Assembly: GCA_029882355.1 (NCBI GenBank)
Contig: JAOUKV010000032.1
Coordinates: forward strand, 1-32,495
DNA from: Gammaproteobacteria bacterium
GTDB lineage: Bacteria > Pseudomonadota > Gammaproteobacteria > SZUA-229
Direction of reading: 5' to 3'
Length of the DNA: 32,495 bases
The notes beneath the pieces were generated by a model. That model did no database searches. It saw only the letters and a list, made by a program, of their open reading frames with translations, and was not told the DNA's origin. Made by a program: the position numbers and the translations under genes. Positions 159-9,408 of this stretch are shown here, in pieces; positions within the stretch are counted from its first letter, which is position 1; each line of letters starts with the position of its first letter.

Positions 159-2810
159 TCATCCCCCACCAACCTCCACAATCAACTCCCGCAACTCCGG
201 CATGCAGGAACCACAATTGGTACCCGCCTGTAAGTGCTCACCGATCTGCTCTGGCGTTGTCAGCTTCATCTGTTTTATTTTCTTGCATAGCGTATTGCGA
301 CCAACGCTAAAACAGGAACAGACAATCTTGCCGGCATCTTCCTGACCCACGCCCGGCGTGCCGGACAGCACTCGCATACGTTCCTGTCGATCAACTATGT
401 CTTTGCTAAACAATTCAATCAACCAGTCGCGCGGTGGCAAATGGTAACCGGTGCCGATGAAGGCGCAGCTATCGAGCTGTCCGTCAATAAACCTTGCACC
501 ACGATACGTTTGTTTTGAAGAATCAAAAAACTCACTCCATTCAACGCCCTGCGCATCCGAACACAGTAGCTGCCTGGCATAATTAGCCCAGTCGTCGGCC
601 ATCTGGTTACCGGCGAGTTCGTAATGCCAAAGCCCCTGACGACGACTCCTTGCCCAGTAGGAAAACGAAGCTGTCTCGATCATGTCACGCGATAAAATAA
701 AGCCATACCAGGCTGCGTTATAAGGCGTCACCTGCACCGGCGTGTGCTTGAACTCGGGCTGACCGGAGATGGGATCGGTATAAGCATTGACCACTTTATC
801 GACTACCGCCGAACTGGCGAACTGGTCATTCCAGTGCATCGGTACAAAAACACTGCCACGACGTTGTGACTCATTGATGCTGGCGCGCACGATCACTTTG
901 CCTTGCGTACTTTTTACTTCGACCAGCTGCCCGGGATAGATTGCCATGGCCTTTGCATCAATCTTGTTTAACTCGGCATAGGATTCGATAACATGGCCAT
1001 TAAGGCGCGGCGATTTTCCTGTGCGTGTCATCGTGTGCCATTGATCACGCACACGTCCGGTATTCAATACCATTGGGTAATCGATATCAGGCAATCGACC
1101 CGGCGGCTGTGGCGTAACTGAAATAAATTTAGCACGACCATTGGCAGTAAAAAACTCGCCATTACCGAACACACGCGCCTGAGCCTGTTGCCCGGTTTTT
1201 ATTGGCCATTGCGTGGGCTTAAAATTCTCATAAGACTCTGCATCAATATCAGCGAGTGCAGATAAATCGAAATCACGTGTGCCGTTATTTTCAAAAGCTG
1301 ACAAAGCTGCATGTTCGCGAAAAATTTGTTGCGGCCGCTGATAATCAAATCCATGGTAGCCCATACGCTGTGCCACCTGGGACAGAATCCACCAGTCCGC
1401 TTTCGCATTCTCCGGTGCTTCAAGAAATGGCCGTTGACGTGAGATGCATCGCTCTGAATTTGTTACCGTACCAGATTTTTCTCCCCATGCTAACGCTGGC
1501 AACAACACATCCGCCAAAGCAGTCGTATCTGTCTGCGTAGCGCAATCGGATACCACCAGAAAATCACATTGCTGCATGGCCTGCCTGACGCGGTAAGCAT
1601 CCGGCATACTCACCGCCGGATTGGTGGCGATGACCCATAGCGCCTTGATCTCACCACGGTGCAGCGCTTCAAATAAATCGACGGCTTTTAAACCCGGCTT
1701 TGTCGCCATCTTCGGTGCCTGCCAGAAGCGCTCGACACGATCGATATCTGCTTTATCAAAATCCATATGTGCGGCAAGCTGGTTAGATAAAGCACCGACC
1801 TCGCGCCCGCCCATGGCATTGGGTTGCCCGGTCACAGAAAAAGGACCCATGCCCGGCTGACCAATACGGCCGGTGAACAGGTGGCAATTAATAATGGCAT
1901 TGACCTTGTCGGTTCCACTGGAGGATTGATTAATACCCTGCGAATAAACTGTCACGGTTTTTTCTGTTTTCGAAAACCATTGATACAAAATTGCAACATC
2001 ATCGGTTCCCAGTTCGCAATGTTGTGCCGCCGCTTCTACATTAGGCGAAAACCATTGAGCTACACGCAAGGCCTCATCCAGTCCTTCAGTGTGCTTGTGA
2101 ATAAATTCTGCATCACCATGATTATGTTCGTTCAACCAGTTCAACAAACCATTAAACAAAATCGCATCCGAACCCGGCTTTAATGCAAGGTGCAAATCGG
2201 CAACATCGCAGCTTGCCGTGCGGCGCGGATCGATGACCACCACTTTCATTTCGGGATTATTTTTTTTCGCCTGCACAATGCGCTGATACAAAACCGGGTG
2301 ACACCACGCCATGTTCGAGCCGGTTAAGATCAGCAACTCGCACTGTTCCAGATCTTGATAACAACCCGGCACCGTGTCGGAACCAAAGGCACGCTTGTGC
2401 CCGGCAACCGATGACGACATGCACAAGCGCGAGTTGGTATCGATATTGGACGAACCAATAAAACCCTTCATCAGTTTATTGGCAACATAATAATCTTCGG
2501 TTAGCAGCTGTCCGGAAACATAAAAAGCCACCGCCTCGGGGCCATGCTGTTCAATCACTTCTTGAAAACGATCAGCCACAGTATCGAGCGCCATATCCCA
2601 GTCGCACTGCTGACCATTAACCACCGGTTGCAGTAAACGGTTTTCCATGTCCAGCGTTTCAGCCAGTGCAGAACCTTTGGAGCACAGCCGACCGAAATTG
2701 GCCGGGTGCTTTTTATCGCCACTAACCGAAAAAGTTTTATCATCATTATGGCTTACGACAAGGCCGCAACCGACACCACAATAAGGACAGGTGGTTTTAA
2801 CTTGTAACAT
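159..2810 (-). CDS. nasA: Assimilatory nitrate reductase catalytic subunit (molybdopterin)
   Basis: An 883-residue cytoplasmic nitrate reductase that reduces nitrate to nitrite for nitrogen assimilation. Residues C8, C11, C15 and C43 (CPYCGVGCG and RLCSKGSAL) form the N-terminal [4Fe-4S] site of the bis-MGD molybdenum oxidoreductase family. The body has the usual Mo-bis-MGD domains (for example GSNMAWCHPV and GQPNAMGGREVG). The C-terminus carries a BFD-like [2Fe-2S] domain with C831, C833, C866 and C869, as in Klebsiella-type NasA that receives electrons without a formate dehydrogenase-style partner. No Tat signal is present, which fits the assimilatory type. It is the last gene of the nirB-nirD-nasA operon, starts 2 nt after nirD stops, and is followed by a terminator. 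Confidence 0.95.
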   Translation of the reverse strand: MLQVKTTCPYCGVGCGLVVSHNDDKTFSVSGDKKHPANFGRLCSKGSALAETLDMENRLLQPVVNGQQCDWDMALDTVADRFQEVIEQHGPEAVAFYVSGQLLTEDYYVANKLMKGFIGSSNIDTNSRLCMSSSVAGHKRAFGSDTVPGCYQDLEQCELLILTGSNMAWCHPVLYQRIVQAKKNNPEMKVVVIDPRRTASCDVADLHLALKPGSDAILFNGLLNWLNEHNHGDAEFIHKHTEGLDEALRVAQWFSPNVEAAAQHCELGTDDVAILYQWFSKTEKTVTVYSQGINQSSSGTDKVNAIINCHLFTGRIGQPGMGPFSVTGQPNAMGGREVGALSNQLAAHMDFDKADIDRVERFWQAPKMATKPGLKAVDLFEALHRGEIKALWVIATNPAVSMPDAYRVRQAMQQCDFLVVSDCATQTDTTALADVLLPALAWGEKSGTVTNSERCISRQRPFLEAPENAKADWWILSQVAQRMGYHGFDYQRPQQIFREHAALSAFENNGTRDFDLSALADIDAESYENFKPTQWPIKTGQQAQARVFGNGEFFTANGRAKFISVTPQPPGRLPDIDYPMVLNTGRVRDQWHTMTRTGKSPRLNGHVIESYAELNKIDAKAMAIYPGQLVEVKSTQGKVIVRASINESQRRGSVFVPMHWNDQFASSAVVDKVVNAYTDPISGQPEFKHTPVQVTPYNAAWYGFILSRDMIETASFSYWARSRRQGLWHYELAGNQMADDWANYARQLLCSDAQGVEWSEFFDSSKQTYRGARFIDGQLDSCAFIGTGYHLPPRDWLIELFSKDIVDRQERMRVLSGTPGVGQEDAGKIVCSCFSVGRNTLCKKIKQMKLTTPEQIGEHLQAGTNCGSCMPELRELIVEVGGG

Positions 2811-3130: not shown

Positions 3131-5613
3131 TATGAAATCTCCAGAATTTTTTCTTCGCTACCGGCATCAAGCTGTAACTTCAATGGTGTAAATTCATGCG
3201 CGGCTTCACCTTCGGCGCGAGCCTTCCAGGGATCGATCTGCGCGTACTTCTGGCTGATCGCGAATCGCGCCGCCAGCGCTTTGCGTTCAACGTCATCGTT
3301 CAGCAAACGCGCTTTAATGCCGCTCAGGCCAACGCGCTCAACCCAGGGTGCGGTGCGTTCAAGGTAGTGTGCTTCTTCGCGATACATCTGACAGAATGCG
3401 CCGCAGTATTCCAGCACCTGTTCTTCGGTTTCGACTTTGGTTAGCAAATCGGTAACGCGAACCTTGATACCGCCATTACCACCAATCAATAATTCATAAC
3501 CGGAATCCACCGCGACCACACCAAAATCTTTAATGGTGGCTTCGGCGCAGTTGCGCGGACAACCCGACACCGCCAGCTTGAATTTATGCGGCATCCACGA
3601 ACCCCAGGTAAGTTCTTCGAGCTTCACACCCAGGCCGGTTGAATCCTGGGTACCAAAACGGCACCAGTTTTTACCGGCACAGGTTTTCACCGTGCGCATG
3701 GCCTTGCCGTAAGCGTGACCGGAAACAAAACCGGCAGCCGATAGGTCTTTCCACATCGGTGGCAGGTCTTCTTTTTTCACGCCGAATAAATCGATACGCT
3801 GGCCACCGGTGACTTTCATTTCCGGCACATCGTATTTATCACAAACATCGGCGATGGCGCGCAACTCATTGGGTTTGACCAGGCCACCGAACATGCGCGG
3901 CACAACCGAATAAGTACCATCTTTCTGGATGTTGCCGTGGGCGCGTTCATTAATGAAACGCGACTGCGCATCATCGGCATATTCTTCCGGCCAGCGTGCC
4001 AACAAATAATAATTCAACGCCGGGCGACAGGCGGCGCAGCCATCGGGCGTTTTCCATTCGAGGAATTCACGAACCGCCTGCATGGATTTCAGTTCGTGCT
4101 CCTTAATCGCATTAATCACTTCATCGTGACTGTGATCGGTGCAGCCGCAAACCGCTTTCTTGTTTGGCGTTTTATCGTAACCCTCGCCCACGGTTGAAGC
4201 CAGTATCGCTTCCACCAGCCCGGTGCACGAACCGCAGGACGAAGACGCCTTGGTATGCGCCTGTACTTCGGCCAGGGTGAACAAACCTTCTTTACTAATC
4301 GCATTAACGATGTCGCCCTTACAGACACCGTTACAGCCACAAATTTCTGCGCTGTCGGGCAAGGCCATCACCGCGGATGCGTCACCATGACCCGCATCAC
4401 CCAAATCGTGCTGGCCAAATAAAATCGTGTTACGAAAATCGGCAATACTGGTTTCATCGCGCATCAACTGGAAATACCAGGTGCCGTCCATGGTGTCGCC
4501 GTACATCACCGCGCCCTTGATTTTGTCATCGCGGATAACCAGTTTTTTATAAACACCCTGCGACGGGTCCTGCAACACCAGCGTTTCATCACCGTCAATT
4601 TCATCGAAGTCACCGGCAGAAAATAAATCGATACCGGTCACCTTGAGCTTGGTCGATGTTATCGAACCCAGATAACGGGTGCTGCCGACTTGCGCCAGAT
4701 GATTCGCCGCCACCTTCGCCTGTTCAAACAATGGCGCAACCAGCCCATAACATTCGTTGCGATGCTGCACACATTCACCCACCGCATAAATTTTCGGATC
4801 GTAAGTCTGCATGGTGTCATTCACCACGACACCACGTTCACAATGAATACCCGCTTTCTGTGCAAGCGACATATTAGGACGGATACCTACCGCCATCACC
4901 ACCAGATCAGCTTCCACTTCTGAGCCATCGGCAAACTTCACAGCGCTGACACGTTTATCACCAATTATCTCTGCCGTCTGCGCTTCCATCATAAAGCGCA
5001 AACCTTTTTCCTCCAGCGACAGCTTCAACATTTCTGAAGCCGTCTTATCGAGCTGGCGCTCCATTAAAGAGTCGAGCAAATGCACCACCGTCACATCCAT
5101 GCCCTGCTTCATCAAACCGTTAGCGGCTTCAAGGCCAAGCAGGCCACCACCAATCACCACCGCCTTTTTATATTTTTGCGCTGCATCAAGCATGGTGTGC
5201 ACATCGTGAATATCACGAAAACCAATCACGCCCTCTTTCTCAGCACCGGGTACAGGAATAATAAAGGGATTAGAACCGGTGGCGATCAACAGGCGGTCAT
5301 AGTCAATCTGCTTACCGCTTTCGGTAATAACGCACTGCTTAACGCGATTGATTTCAGAAACCGCATCACCGGTAATCAGCTCAATATTATTTTCAGCATA
5401 CCAGTCCAGACTATTGAGAATAATGTCATCAATCGTCTTCTCACTGGCCAGCACCGGCGACAGCATAATGCGATTGTAATTAGGGTGCGGCTCGGCACCG
5501 ATCACAGTAACATCGTATAAATCCGAACCCGCACCTTCACCGTGCTTGAACAGCTCCTCAAGCGTTCGCACACCCGCCATACCATTGCCGATTAAAATCA
5601 GTTTCTGTTTCAT
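3130..5613 (-). CDS. nirB: Nitrite reductase [NAD(P)H] large subunit
   Basis: Siroheme nitrite reductase large subunit of 827 residues from the chosen start. In order it shows an N-terminal FAD/NAD(P)H oxidoreductase (IGNGMAGVRTLEEL, ATGSNPF, VIGGGLLGLEAANGL), two BFD-like Fe-S segments (CGCNGVCKG...SCGSC and CGCTD...CAAC), a ferredoxin-like half-domain, and the siroheme/[4Fe-4S] cluster ligands TCAGKNWC and SGCPRNCAEA. The frame is open 20 codons further upstream, but the ATG at 5613 gives the canonical MKQKLILIGNGMAG start and has a GAGGCGAG ribosome binding site just upstream. It is the first gene of the operon, driven by the sigma-54-like promoter at 5657-5672. Confidence 0.95.
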   Translation of the reverse strand: MKQKLILIGNGMAGVRTLEELFKHGEGAGSDLYDVTVIGAEPHPNYNRIMLSPVLASEKTIDDIILNSLDWYAENNIELITGDAVSEINRVKQCVITESGKQIDYDRLLIATGSNPFIIPVPGAEKEGVIGFRDIHDVHTMLDAAQKYKKAVVIGGGLLGLEAANGLMKQGMDVTVVHLLDSLMERQLDKTASEMLKLSLEEKGLRFMMEAQTAEIIGDKRVSAVKFADGSEVEADLVVMAVGIRPNMSLAQKAGIHCERGVVVNDTMQTYDPKIYAVGECVQHRNECYGLVAPLFEQAKVAANHLAQVGSTRYLGSITSTKLKVTGIDLFSAGDFDEIDGDETLVLQDPSQGVYKKLVIRDDKIKGAVMYGDTMDGTWYFQLMRDETSIADFRNTILFGQHDLGDAGHGDASAVMALPDSAEICGCNGVCKGDIVNAISKEGLFTLAEVQAHTKASSSCGSCTGLVEAILASTVGEGYDKTPNKKAVCGCTDHSHDEVINAIKEHELKSMQAVREFLEWKTPDGCAACRPALNYYLLARWPEEYADDAQSRFINERAHGNIQKDGTYSVVPRMFGGLVKPNELRAIADVCDKYDVPEMKVTGGQRIDLFGVKKEDLPPMWKDLSAAGFVSGHAYGKAMRTVKTCAGKNWCRFGTQDSTGLGVKLEELTWGSWMPHKFKLAVSGCPRNCAEATIKDFGVVAVDSGYELLIGGNGGIKVRVTDLLTKVETEEQVLEYCGAFCQMYREEAHYLERTAPWVERVGLSGIKARLLNDDVERKALAARFAISQKYAQIDPWKARAEGEAAHEFTPLKLQLDAGSEEKILEIS

Positions 5614-5672: not shown

Positions 5673-5678
5673 TGTTTT

Positions 5679-5753
5679 GGGGGGCGGTGGGATGGGGGTT
5701 TGGGGGGGTTTGGGGGGGTTTGGGGCGATGGGGGCACCATGGGGGTGCAGGGG
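5679..5753 (+). other. G-tract block with G-quadruplex potential upstream of nirB
   Basis: Eight runs of three or more G lie within 75 bp on the plus strand: 6 G at 5679, 3 at 5689, 5 at 5694, 7 at 5702, 7 at 5712, 4 at 5722, 5 at 5730 and 5 at 5741, with a further GGGG at 5750. The core is a TTTGGGGGGG unit repeated in tandem. Loops are only 1-7 nt, so stable G-quadruplexes are expected on this strand and i-motifs on the other. The block lies upstream of the predicted nirB start site, between the NtrC-like site and the -24 box. Confidence 0.85.
5733..5749 (-). promoter_or_regulatory. NtrC-like enhancer site for nirB
   Basis: On the minus strand the sequence is TGCACC-CCCAT-GGTGCC, 11 of 12 matches to the NtrC dyad TGCACC-N5-GGTGCA. 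A further half-site TGCACC is at 5762-5767. The centre lies about 94 bp upstream of the start site predicted from the -24/-12 element, within the usual range for an NtrC enhancer. Confidence 0.6.
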
Positions 5754-5889
5754 AATTGTTTGGTGCACAGAATAAGCGCGTGGGGTTGTTGTGGAGAGAG
5801 TACGCCCCAACTTGGGGACTTAGAAATCAATTCTAGTTAGATGGGATAAAAATAACTGGAACCTGTTAAATCAACTGAATCCTCCACCC

Positions 5890-5961
5890 TTACAAAACAA
5901 TCACTAAATACTTACAATATAGTAGCCATAACTTTACAATAAGACTATAATATCTTTACAA
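5890..5961 (+). promoter_or_regulatory. Four TTACAA boxes at exact 22-bp period over the promoter of the HTH-GHKL-STAS gene
   Basis: TTACAA occurs at 5890, 5912, 5934 and 5956. The three downstream copies extend to TTACAAT, and the last two to CTTTACAAT. Each start is exactly 22 bp from the next, about two helical turns, so all boxes face one side of the DNA. A perfect -10 hexamer TATAAT lies at 5946-5951 between boxes 3 and 4, and box 4 runs into the ATG. No Shine-Dalgarno is visible and the predicted start of transcription falls at or within a few bases of the ATG, so the mRNA may be leaderless. This looks like an operator array for the HTH domain of the gene itself. Confidence 0.7.
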
Positions 5962-7010
5962 TGAAAAACACAGAACTAGGCAAAACAAAGCGCTCAAGAC
6001 TAATCCGAAACTATTTGTTGAATGCAGTTAAATCTGACAATCAACAAATGATCCACGACAGTCCTGAAATATTTAAAGTCAGCCGCCAAACCATTCACTC
6101 TCATCTCTCAGCATTGGTAGATATGGGCTTTCTTGTGGCGCATGGAAATACCAAGGCAAGAATTTATAAACTTGGCTCAAAGCGTTCCCATAGCCAAAGT
6201 TACCCACTTCCTAACCTTCGTGAAAGCGATGTTTACTATCAAGACTTTAGTTTTATTTTTAAAGATTTACCCACTAATATTGAGGACATCTGCCACTATG
6301 GCTTCACTGAGATGCTTAATAATGCCATTGATCATTCAGGAGGGGAGTTTGTTTATGTGAGCACCGAGAGGAACGAAGATTACATAGAAATTTACATTTC
6401 AGATAATGGTGAGGGTATTTTTAATCACATTGCTCGCATTATGAGCTTAAGCGACCCGAGAGAATCAATTCTAGAGCTTAGTAAAGGCAAGCTAACAACA
6501 GATCCCGACAACCATACTGGTCAAGGCATATTCTTTACTTCTCGAACATTCGATTCTTTTCATATATTTAGCGGTGATTTAATTTTTACACATCATGATG
6601 ATGCCACAAAAGATTACCTGCTACACAATGACAAGGAGAATATTGGCACATCTGTGTTTATGAAGATTGCTATGACAAGCCCCAGAGATCTTGCGGATGT
6701 ATTTGATGCTTTCACAGGCACAGAAGATGAAGACTTCGCTTTCAATACCACAGTGGTACCAGTTAGATTAGTACTATATGAAGGTGAAAAATTAGTATCT
6801 AGATCACAAGCTAAACGGATTTTAAATCGTGTAGAAAAATTTAGTACTGTGCTTCTAGATTTTGAAGGTGTAGATTCAATAGGCCAGGCTTTTGCCGATG
6901 AGGTATTTCGAGTTTTCGCTAGAAAAAACCCACAGATTAGTATTCAACCAACACACACGTCAGATAGTATTAATAGAATGATTCTTGCAGCTAAAAGCAA
7001 TCAGGATTGA
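5961..7010 (+). CDS. HTH / GHKL-ATPase / STAS-like (DUF4325) fusion regulator
   Basis: A 349-residue protein with three parts. Residues 10-75 form a winged-HTH-like DNA-binding region (SRQTIHSHLSALVDMGFL). Residues 90-235 form a histidine-kinase-like ATPase with the N-box EMLNNAIDHS at 117-126, G1 DNGEGI at 148-153 and G2 HTGQGIFF at 185-192; no phosphoacceptor His domain is present. Residues 262-349 form a STAS-like DUF4325 domain (LLDFEGVDSIGQAFADEVFR). The layout resembles an anti-sigma-factor kinase and its STAS antagonist joined to a DNA-binding head. It is AT-richer than the flanking nas/nir/nrt genes, stands alone, and is followed by a palindromic element. Domain calls are firm; the biological role is unknown. 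Confidence 0.85.
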   Translation: MKNTELGKTKRSRLIRNYLLNAVKSDNQQMIHDSPEIFKVSRQTIHSHLSALVDMGFLVAHGNTKARIYKLGSKRSHSQSYPLPNLRESDVYYQDFSFIFKDLPTNIEDICHYGFTEMLNNAIDHSGGEFVYVSTERNEDYIEIYISDNGEGIFNHIARIMSLSDPRESILELSKGKLTTDPDNHTGQGIFFTSRTFDSFHIFSGDLIFTHHDDATKDYLLHNDKENIGTSVFMKIAMTSPRDLADVFDAFTGTEDEDFAFNTTVVPVRLVLYEGEKLVSRSQAKRILNRVEKFSTVLLDFEGVDSIGQAFADEVFRVFARKNPQISIQPTHTSDSINRMILAAKSNQD

Positions 7011-7040: not shown

Positions 7041-7123
7041 GTAGGATGCGGTGAAGAATGAACCGCATCAACCGCGCATTAACTCTCCCGACAGATGCGG
7101 TTCGCAAACTCACCACATCCTAC
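7041..7123. repeat. 83-bp palindromic element, GTAGGATGCGG type
   Basis: The left arm 7041-7069 (GTAGGATGCGGTGA...GAACCGCATC) is an imperfect inverted copy of the right arm 7094-7123 (GATGCGGTTC...TCACCACATCCTAC). Termini GTAGGATG/CATCCTAC are perfect. It resembles interspersed REP-like or MITE-like elements of proteobacteria. It fills the space between the HTH-GHKL-STAS gene and the zinc-ribbon gene. Confidence 0.75.
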
Positions 7124-7172
7124 AAATCATGCATCCCCACCCAAAAGCGCGGCAATAAAAAAAGGAAAAGCT

Positions 7173-7700
7173 ATGAACGAAATGAAAGAGTGTAAAACTT
7201 GCTTTGAAGAAATAAATGCAAAAGCATTGAAATTCCCGCACTGTCAAACCTGGCAGACGAAATGGAAATATGATCAGTCTAACCCTAAACATCATTTAAT
7301 ATTTTTAGCTATATTATTTGGCGCAATGGGCATTATGTTTTATAGCTCATTAGGCAGTATCTTTAACCCAAATGAATTCTCCGACAACAAATCTTCATTT
7401 GTAGTTAAAGAATCCAGGGTAAGTTTTACTGAAAAAGAATGTGGCACTACGGTGTCAATTATCGGAACTATTACAAATAACAGCGAAGTATCATGGAAAG
7501 ACTTTAATTTTGAAGCACAGTTCTTTAATGAAGATAATGAGCTAATTGACACTGTATCAGATCAAAACTACGATTTAATTCTTTTACCAAACGACGATGG
7601 TACTTTTAAAGTAACAGGTGCTGCGGACAAGTCAAAATCCTCATATCACCACCACAAAGTTATAATTAAGGATGCAAGAGAAAATGGCTCGTTATTTTAG
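7173..7700 (+). CDS. Small zinc-ribbon-like membrane protein, function unknown
   Basis: A 175-residue protein. The frame is open upstream into the palindromic element, but the ATG at 7173 follows a clear AAAGGAAA ribosome binding site and opens directly into the zinc-ribbon-like motif. That motif is C-x2-C (CKTC) followed by KFPHC instead of the usual KCPHC, so one of four zinc ligands is Phe and metal binding is doubtful. Next come a single transmembrane helix (HLIFLAILFGAMGIMFYSSL) and an extracytoplasmic beta-rich domain resembling FxLYD-type folds (GTITNNSEVSWKDFNFEAQFFN). It is AT-rich like the upstream regulator. No function can be assigned. Confidence 0.75.
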   Translation: MNEMKECKTCFEEINAKALKFPHCQTWQTKWKYDQSNPKHHLIFLAILFGAMGIMFYSSLGSIFNPNEFSDNKSSFVVKESRVSFTEKECGTTVSIIGTITNNSEVSWKDFNFEAQFFNEDNELIDTVSDQNYDLILLPNDDGTFKVTGAADKSKSSYHHHKVIIKDARENGSLF

Positions 7701-7791: not shown

Positions 7792-9156
7792 CTAAAACCC
7801 CTCAAACCCCCCCCTAATATCCCGATGAATTTCAATCAACCTAACCTTGTTCTCTGCCGGCAATGTTTTTAATGCATTTATTCTCTTATCATAATCTTCG
7901 GTAACTTTTAGCAGTCGCTCAATAGAATTAAATAAGGCGTTTTTGCTGATGCCGAGGTTTTTACTAAAACGAAGGTAAGCTGTATTGAAATCGATCATTT
8001 TGCCATCGACTTCTTCGCCATAATTACCAAAACCCATTCCTGCTGGAAATAATGCGTTATGTATTGAATAGGCTCGCATTGGTACCGGATCATAGACAGG
8101 GGTGAATGAGAGTTTTCCATCACGCTCATAGATGGATAAATTTTCGAGATGTAAATCACCGTTGCCGGTTAACATCGCCATTATCAATCGTTCTAGCAAA
8201 TGTAATTTGGCCTGTTTGCGATCGGATACCAGTTGTACATAGGGATTGTCTATTGCTTGTCCTATATGGTCATAGGTCGTGCTGTAATGATTGGTAATTT
8301 TTTCATTACCTGATGCCAATATAGAGTAAATCGATTCCATAAAGACTGTGCCGCCATTTTTAATGCGATCAAAACGTTCTATCGCAATAGCATTTAGGTC
8401 ATTCACTTTAACTGGCCAGTATCTCGGTACATCAAAACCGGCATCATCATGCATTGCCAGTCCTAATGCCTCAAGCTCAATAATGCCGGGATACTGTGAT
8501 GTGTTTTCTAACTTGAGAATAATATCTGTACGATCGGTATCGCCAAATCGTGTTGGTAGACCAATACGTCCGTCCCAGCCGGCATGTTCAATAGATAGCG
8601 GAAGTTTCGGTATTGCACCACCAACCGATGGTGTTGGGCCGAGCACATCGATAAGAAATTCTGCATCACCATCAAACCAGGTCATGAATTCTTTTAAGCT
8701 AAAACCAAATTTTTTATCAAGCTCAACAAGTCCTTTCTTTGAGGGTGTTGAGTACCATTGCTGCGCTGCGCTATCACTTGCAAAGACATCCAGGTGGCCT
8801 ATGCCACCATGTCCTGCATTGATCAGGATATTCCAGTCAGTATCAAACCCCGGGTCTGGGTGAATATTAATTTTTTCCAGGTATTTCAATAAAAGTGCGC
8901 GTTGAAAATTGCGCTCTGCCCGTGATGGAATGAGGGATCTTATAGGCGGATGAAAATCAAAATATTCGGTACGGGGACGAACAATGGTACTGGTGAAATC
9001 TTTCGGAGGATAAGCTAATCCAAGACCAGGTAAATTAGTCTCGTCATAACCCGTTTCGTAGGTAAAGCGGCTCTCTATATCGGTAACACTCAAAGTACCC
9101 ATTTTAACGGGCTGTGTACCAAGACGGGTCCAAATTACAGCGTTGCGATCTTTCAT
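7792..9156 (-). CDS. hipA: HipA-family serine/threonine kinase toxin
   Basis: A 454-residue HipA-like kinase, the toxin of a type II toxin-antitoxin pair; in E. coli HipA inactivates glutamyl-tRNA synthetase, but the target here is not known. It shows the Ser-containing P-loop-like segment SVGGAIPK (177-184), ERFDR (260-264), the catalytic loop NGDLHLENLS (332-341, with D334 as presumed catalytic base) and the metal-binding VYD (354-356). The sequence departs from the E. coli type (TDAHGRN loop), so it belongs to another HipA subfamily. The HTH antitoxin gene ends 6 nt upstream and is cotranscribed in antitoxin-first order. All key residues are present, so the toxin is probably functional. 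Confidence 0.85.
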   Translation of the reverse strand: MKDRNAVIWTRLGTQPVKMGTLSVTDIESRFTYETGYDETNLPGLGLAYPPKDFTSTIVRPRTEYFDFHPPIRSLIPSRAERNFQRALLLKYLEKINIHPDPGFDTDWNILINAGHGGIGHLDVFASDSAAQQWYSTPSKKGLVELDKKFGFSLKEFMTWFDGDAEFLIDVLGPTPSVGGAIPKLPLSIEHAGWDGRIGLPTRFGDTDRTDIILKLENTSQYPGIIELEALGLAMHDDAGFDVPRYWPVKVNDLNAIAIERFDRIKNGGTVFMESIYSILASGNEKITNHYSTTYDHIGQAIDNPYVQLVSDRKQAKLHLLERLIMAMLTGNGDLHLENLSIYERDGKLSFTPVYDPVPMRAYSIHNALFPAGMGFGNYGEEVDGKMIDFNTAYLRFSKNLGISKNALFNSIERLLKVTEDYDKRINALKTLPAENKVRLIEIHRDIRGGFEGF

Positions 9157-9162
9157 GGCAAA

Positions 9163-9408
9163 TTAAAAGAGCTGGCCTTTTCTTACCAGCTCTGGAAGGT
9201 CAGTTGTATCGTCGACCCAAACAAGCTTCTTACCGACACTTTTGCCCAATTCAACAATGGTGCTAAGTTTCGCATCGTTTGCTTTCTTCAAGCGAGACAA
9301 GCCAACCTCACCGAGTGAGGATTTCTCTGCAAGGTCTTTTTGTTTCAAACCCTGCTCTTTTGCAGCTTGCAAAGCCTCATTAACCAATTTATGTAATATT
9401 GCGTCCAT
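9163..9408 (-). CDS. hipB: HipB-like XRE-family antitoxin
   Basis: An 81-residue helix-turn-helix protein of the XRE/Cro type (LKQKDLAEKSSLGEVGLSRLKK) followed by a short tail ending LPELVRKGQLF. By position and size it is the antitoxin and autorepressor of the HipA-like kinase 6 nt downstream. HipB-type antitoxins bind operator DNA as dimers; candidate operators lie at 9422-9534. No strong ribosome binding site is seen. Confidence 0.8.
   Translation of the reverse strand: MDAILHKLVNEALQAAKEQGLKQKDLAEKSSLGEVGLSRLKKANDAKLSTIVELGKSVGKKLVWVDDTTDLPELVRKGQLF

Follow-up and report, generated by a model that had tools for sequence, protein, structure and literature searches.

Four TTACAA boxes, set exactly 22 bp apart, run into the start codon of a gene for a single-chain regulator in which a wHTH, a SpoIIAB-like GHKL ATPase and a STAS-like domain are joined, on a 32,495-nucleotide stretch of gammaproteobacterial DNA (contig JAOUKV010000032.1; hereafter the window). 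The best explanation for the data as a whole, in which we place good confidence, is that the boxes serve as the operator for the protein whose gene follows them immediately. Comparable arrays precede homologous genes in several phyla, where the spacing is kept while the box word changes.

The boxes and the encoded protein

On the + strand of the window, TTACAA begins at 5890, 5912, 5934 and 5956, and the pattern described by the first-pass annotation was recovered in full: the period is exactly 22 bp, the boxes at 5912, 5934 and 5956 read TTACAAT, a TATAAT lies between boxes 3 and 4, box 4 reaches into the start codon as far as its A (ATG at 5961), and no similarity connects the inner spacers. 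A better consensus for the boxes in the window is [CT]TTACAA(T) (Table 1). The number of TTACAA copies in the whole window is ordinary (20 found, 22.9 expected); the unusual feature is their phasing. A first-order model of the local AT-rich region predicts only about 4.5e-6 cases in which any 6-mer would occur four times with a constant period between 15 and 30 bp. The TATAAT also forms a 10/12 promoter match, TAGCCA-17-TATAAT. This promoter had been called leaderless-looking, a description that fits the window because no Shine-Dalgarno-like sequence lies 5' of the ATG, but that fails as a trait of the family, since an AGGAG-type ribosome site lies beside or overlaps the last box in the homologous loci L020, L022, L028, L036, L063 and L070. 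Farther upstream, between the array and a nitrite reductase gene on the minus strand, dense G-runs (GGGGG/TTT repeats) occupy positions 5678-5755, possibly a G-quadruplex former in the nirB promoter region.

Table 1. Positions of the array elements and of the regulator gene in the window
Feature	Position	Strand	Basis
Box 1, CTTACAAA, the most degenerate	5889..5896	+	Direct reading
Box 2, CTTACAAT; may double as the -35 of TACAAT in box 3 (18-bp spacer)	5911..5918	+	
Box 3, TTTACAAT	5933..5940	+	
Predicted -10 element TATAAT, 9 bp ahead of the ATG; kept in L001	5946..5951	+	
Box 4, TTTACAAT, overlapping the start codon	5955..5962	+	
Gene for the single-chain regulator, 349 aa	5961..7010	+	Pfam, AlphaFold model, fold matches
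Domains: wHTH, residues ~9-76; SpoIIAB-like GHKL ATPase, ~73-240; STAS-like DUF4325, ~262-349			Pfam, AlphaFold, fold matches
wHTH turn and recognition helix, residues 36-51, EIFKVSRQTIHSHLSA	6066..6113	+	
STAS alpha-2 region, residues 308-319, invariant GQAFADEVFRVF	6882..6917	+	

Pfam assigned a HATPase_c/GHKL domain and DUF4325 (PF14213; 59.1 bits against a curated cut-off of 23) to the encoded protein, and an ArsR-like wHTH was found below the Pfam cut-off. A search of PDB sequences with the protein returned generic histidine kinase and wHTH matches only, and with DUF4325 alone nothing useful. The AlphaFold model of the full protein has a mean pLDDT of 83.9, and its GHKL part is closest to SpoIIAB (1til_E; Z 15.1, rmsd 2.4, 133 residues), with histidine kinases and gyrase at Z about 9-10. 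This part has the SpoIIAB fold, the N box, the G1 and G2 motifs and the catalytic Glu and Asn of a SpoIIAB/RsbW-type GHKL domain. The protein is expected to bind ATP, given that 70 homologues keep E117, N121, D148, G150, G152, G187 and G189 without exception. The C-terminal domain, folded alone, reached a pLDDT of 91 and matched the STAS folds of RsfB, RsbS, SpoIIAA and SLC26 proteins at Z about 7, a weak value when taken singly, and nearly all listed matches are STAS domains. Its alpha-2 begins at the invariant G308-Q309-A310-F311, and no more than 25 of the 78 sequences have a Ser at position 306. By secondary-structure equivalence, the start of alpha-2, the SpoIIAA-type phospho-acceptor place, has no conserved serine, making canonical STAS serine phosphorylation unlikely.

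Conservation and uniqueness of the array

The comparison drew on 80 homologues of 42-92% identity. Their record titles place them in beta- and gamma-proteobacteria, cyanobacteria, Desulfobacterota, Chloroflexota, Planctomycetota and Nitrospirota; many are MAGs, so individual assignments could be mistaken. Scanning of 78 loci revealed upstream boxes with the 21-23-bp phasing expected by the first-pass annotation, in the form TT[TG]AC[AG] at 21 or 22 bp. Strict pairs numbered 40 at 21 bp and 79 at 22 bp, with echoes at 42-44 and 66 and other distances almost empty; the remainder of those loci (1.5 Mb, both strands, 1156 boxes) yielded a single 21-bp pair and no 22-bp pair. A loose-scoring chain scan, which gave chance triples in controls, was dropped in favour of strict boxes, and an AT-matched control gave 0 pairs, below expectation, so the pair-distance count was relied on instead. 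At least two strictly phased boxes were present in 65 of the 78 loci and at least three in 46; three boxes are usual, mostly spaced 22+22 or 21+22. The last box lies a median of 19 bp from the ATG (range 6-102), and the arrays run in the direction of the gene (76 same-sense, 0 antisense). Held-out loci from later searches carry the same arrays. This conservation of period and polarity supports the earlier proposal of selection for phase on one face of the DNA. Unusually long arrays, with 4-6 strict boxes at exactly 22 bp, lie upstream of the gene in the Dehalococcoidia MAGs L047 and L059.

A chance origin of the array was rejected on the 4.5e-6 expectation in the window and the near-empty pair-distance control. 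Decay of a tandem duplication was rejected as well: the spacers differ, words and period persist across phyla, and the period persists across unrelated words.

In the window's own genome, the gene is single-copy and the array occurs here only. Among 50 carrier genomes, the three-box pattern was found essentially at the own gene alone, the exceptions being one minisatellite family and two stray matches; 13 of the 50 lack a perfect three-box array. The two-box pattern was present at the own gene in 30 of 30 genomes and elsewhere about as often as a reversed-pattern control. A regulon of such arrays was therefore rejected, with around 20 non-own matches (three in one minisatellite) against 14 for the reversed pattern. 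As far as two- and three-box patterns were searched, the multi-box array is essentially unique in each genome and lies at its own gene; single-box targets may lie elsewhere. The genome of L044 (G090, contigs C77, C155 and C205) carries a minisatellite, TTTACACCTGTCCAGAAACCA, with a 21-bp period and an unrelated word. A TTGACAA/TTTACAA pair, possibly a second target or an ordinary promoter, lies upstream of a topoisomerase III-like gene at about 1501-1528 of L131, and the L063 genome (G102:C29) has one that is almost the same.

The array and the gene also travel together without cargo. The window and L001, whose proteins are 92% identical, share the DNA that begins with box 1 and ends with the stop codon, and no similarity can be recognised beyond it; box 1 is the first common element, with identity 5' of it at background. 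No neighbour family recurs across loci, where adjacent genes are unrelated (PADLOC and Pfam families next door included), and only 29 of 75 loci have a downstream neighbour that shares the strand of the gene. An operon or defence partner was rejected on these grounds. The absence of conserved neighbours and of other multi-box sites supports the earlier description of a one-gene, self-contained switch. Carriers are scattered: 6 of 58 relatives (the window's own genome included), about 11 of 140 genomes at class level by near-full-length match, and 7 of 398 at phylum level under a stricter cut-off. Searches of two annotated collections gave no plasmid or phage match, and relatives are encoded on 19 viral contigs. 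The viral contigs L112-L129 that carry relatives are probably prophage, and phrog_3364, whose function is unassigned, matches the protein at 3e-12.

Several features next to the gene were also recorded. In the window, a HipA-like kinase (HipA_C) and a small HTH partner, a HipBA-type toxin-antitoxin pair, adjoin the gene on the minus strand (7792-9408) and are not conserved at other loci. Between the regulator gene and hipA, positions 7095-7700 encode a protein whose length is 182-201 aa according to which start codon is used; CxxC motifs lie close to the N-terminus, and Pfam gave no match. L093 (about 3427-3630) and L100 each have a further DUF4325-like segment, some 1 kb downstream of the DUF4325 in the homologue itself.

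Box words, the HTH and other possible readers

The period outlasts the word. L089 has three CCTTTAAGAA boxes at 21 and 22 bp and a recognition helix reading TPQAVNSH, and L050 has three GTTGTCGAT boxes at the same spacings and the helix SKQATARH. Other words repeated at a 21/22-bp period are GGTTTATAT (L046), GTAACATGT (L094), AGTAGCAAG (L129) and ACARTGCAG (L118). A motif-free scan placed the best repeat lag at 20-23 bp in 20.1 of 36 distant loci compared with 4.2 in shuffles, and a repeat of at least 8/9 at 21/22 bp was present in 79 of 102 loci. By the repeat-lag scan, the array is absent in several distant homologues (L106, L107, L110, L111 and L126). Besides its three direct boxes, L089 has a reverse copy, CTTAAAGG, directly before the start codon.

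The box spacing is also that of sigma-70 elements, so operator and promoter elements may be superposed. A run of nested sigma-70 promoters, in which each box serves as the -35 (TTTACA/TTGACA) for the next as -10 (TACAAT/GACAAT), would reduce the period to a 17-18-bp spacer and need no dedicated binder. Box-to-box pairs in the window are indeed promoter-like (TTTACA-18-TACAAT), a 21-bp period gives a 17-bp spacer, and the middle box is TTTACAATA after TTGACA in L020, L063 and L070. Yet the same period is kept with words unlike either hexamer (CCTTTAAGAA, GTTGTCGAT, AGTAGCAAG, TGCAGG), and on the sequences compared the sigma-70 spacing leaves such non-TTKACA words unexplained. Moreover, the three-box form is the rule where two boxes would suffice for one promoter, the last box often lies over the ribosome-binding site or the ATG, and phased pairs elsewhere in the genomes are no commoner than the reversed pattern. 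We consider this account improbable.

The word also follows the HTH. Among 61 non-redundant loci, word distance correlated with HTH distance once the distance of the remaining protein had been partialled out (partial Mantel r=0.28, p=0.001); with HTH distance partialled out, its correlation with the remaining protein was lower (r=0.13, p=0.04). Judged from these alignments, the association is much confounded by relatedness and goes beyond overall protein relatedness in the partial test. In the recognition helix, R42-Q43 is nearly invariant and residues 46-48 vary by box class: S46-A47 occurs in 7/7 arrays of the TTTACGTTT class, and K47 in 20/26 of the TTGACAA class and 4/20 of the TTTACAA class. 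In column-wise mutual information with the box word, residues 47 and 46 ranked 14 and 20 of 264, a ranking that does not set the recognition helix apart and in which kinship is not separated from contact. We therefore claim the association at the level of the domain and not of single residues.

Operators of foreign regulators commonly lie at such places, and a different host regulator or nucleoid protein might bind the array while the gene's own protein acts elsewhere. This is very improbable, as array and gene move together from one unrelated context to another, the remainder of each genome is essentially free of the array, and its word tracks the gene's own HTH. Iterons and partition sites typically show phased direct repeats beside a gene that encodes a wHTH protein, and the wHTH here is weakly similar to archaeal AspA (E=0.03), so the protein might instead assemble on the array for DNA maintenance and not for transcription control. 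With no match among the annotated plasmids and phages, no replication or segregation partner, a protein that is not a Rep by Pfam, a gene that sits in the chromosomes of scattered species, and an array that always overlaps the gene's promoter and start, such an iteron- or centromere-like role is hardly credible. A 5'-leader element bound as RNA has a negligible chance of being right: the last box often falls within the likely transcribed leader, but the remaining boxes are 5' of plausible start sites, the 21/22-bp period is that of the DNA helix, and the N-terminal domain is a wHTH.

Together, because period and polarity are conserved, the word changes with the HTH, each genome has one array, and array and gene are the only DNA shared between the window and L001, the array is very probably a self-operator of the gene's own protein, and its assignment to the HTH of the adjacent protein in the first-pass annotation is the most likely reading.

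Proposed mechanism and relation to known switches

We propose that each wHTH would read one box. With 21-22 bp being two turns of B-DNA, successive protomers would sit head-to-tail along the same face of the helix, and the direct repeats imply translational, not two-fold, symmetry of the assembly. The aligned protomers would occlude RNA polymerase, giving cooperative autoregulation whose net effect is fairly likely to be repression. By a weaker inference, the STAS domain of one protomer could dock on the SpoIIAB-like GHKL domain of its neighbour, a SpoIIAA-SpoIIAB contact made in trans, and ATP binding or hydrolysis, or some ligand or partner, could make or break the chain; such a head-to-tail GHKL-STAS chain is only tentatively put forward. 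It is rather unlikely, if conceivable, that this solitary, horizontally moving gene encodes a single-chain, DNA-binding partner-switch that forms a head-to-tail, ATP-gated filament of fixed two-turn pitch on its own array and, as the genome has no other array, that assembly at one chromosomal place is itself the functional device (a memory, a sensor or an immune trigger).

The nearest functional precedent is CapK/CapS, a pair that controls immune operons in bacteria (EMBO J 2026, PMC13373217). CapKS comprises two proteins, the HTH-STAS-GHKL kinase CapK and the STAS-wHTH repressor CapS; it acts at palindromic TTAA operator sites, with an immune operon downstream, and autoregulates its own promoter, ssDNA being the activator (PMC13373217). 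CapS is phosphorylated at a serine (Ser54) that lies where STAS alpha-2 begins and is absolutely conserved, and its oligomerisation along DNA has been suggested (PMC13373217). The window protein shares the SpoIIAB-like GHKL fold, the STAS fold and the wHTH and, in the mechanism proposed above, would also share autoregulation and assembly along DNA. In contrast to CapKS, it is encoded by one gene in the order wHTH-GHKL-STAS with no STAS-wHTH partner among the neighbour families, its family lacks a conserved serine at the alpha-2 start (by secondary structure, not residue alignment), its boxes are non-palindromic direct repeats two turns apart, and no PADLOC or Pfam neighbour recurs. On this comparative evidence the window system is not a member of that group, but by analogy it may work like a one-gene CapKS.

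Other known systems share parts of this design. The partner-switching pairs SpoIIAB/SpoIIAA and RsbW/RsbV, each an anti-sigma factor kinase with a STAS antagonist, have in common with the window protein a GHKL domain with catalytic Glu and Asn and a STAS fold. The window protein, in contrast, fuses both domains and a DNA-binding domain in one polypeptide, its family does not conserve the canonical phospho-serine, and no sigma factor is known for it. VapK of the VapKSC toxin-antitoxin system, found in a defence/stress setting, also joins STAS and GHKL in one chain and acts with VapS and VapC (PMC13373217), whereas VapK has no described wHTH and the window has no VapS/VapC partners. Autoregulated one-component wHTH repressors with direct-repeat operators have an operator that lies over their own promoter and is read by their own wHTH, as is proposed for the window system; the window system adds the ATPase and STAS domains, a strict two turns per box and essentially no other multi-box site. 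Plasmid iteron systems are plasmid-borne and lie beside a replication initiator gene, unlike the present gene. We found no description of the wHTH-GHKL-STAS architecture or of its array in the open-access literature.

The best explanation of the comparative sequence data is thus a solitary, mobile, self-targeting regulator that would be new as a variant of known switch parts. It raises the question of why a multi-box array is present solely at the regulator's own gene. The scattered DUF4325 family, which spans several phyla and viral contigs, gains an exactly defined candidate DNA target, and the fixed spacing, with word and recognition helix changing, offers a specificity code to test. With partner-switching domains and a DNA reader in one chain, the protein would be a single-gene equivalent of the CapK/CapS immune switches, which were described in 2026 and need two genes.
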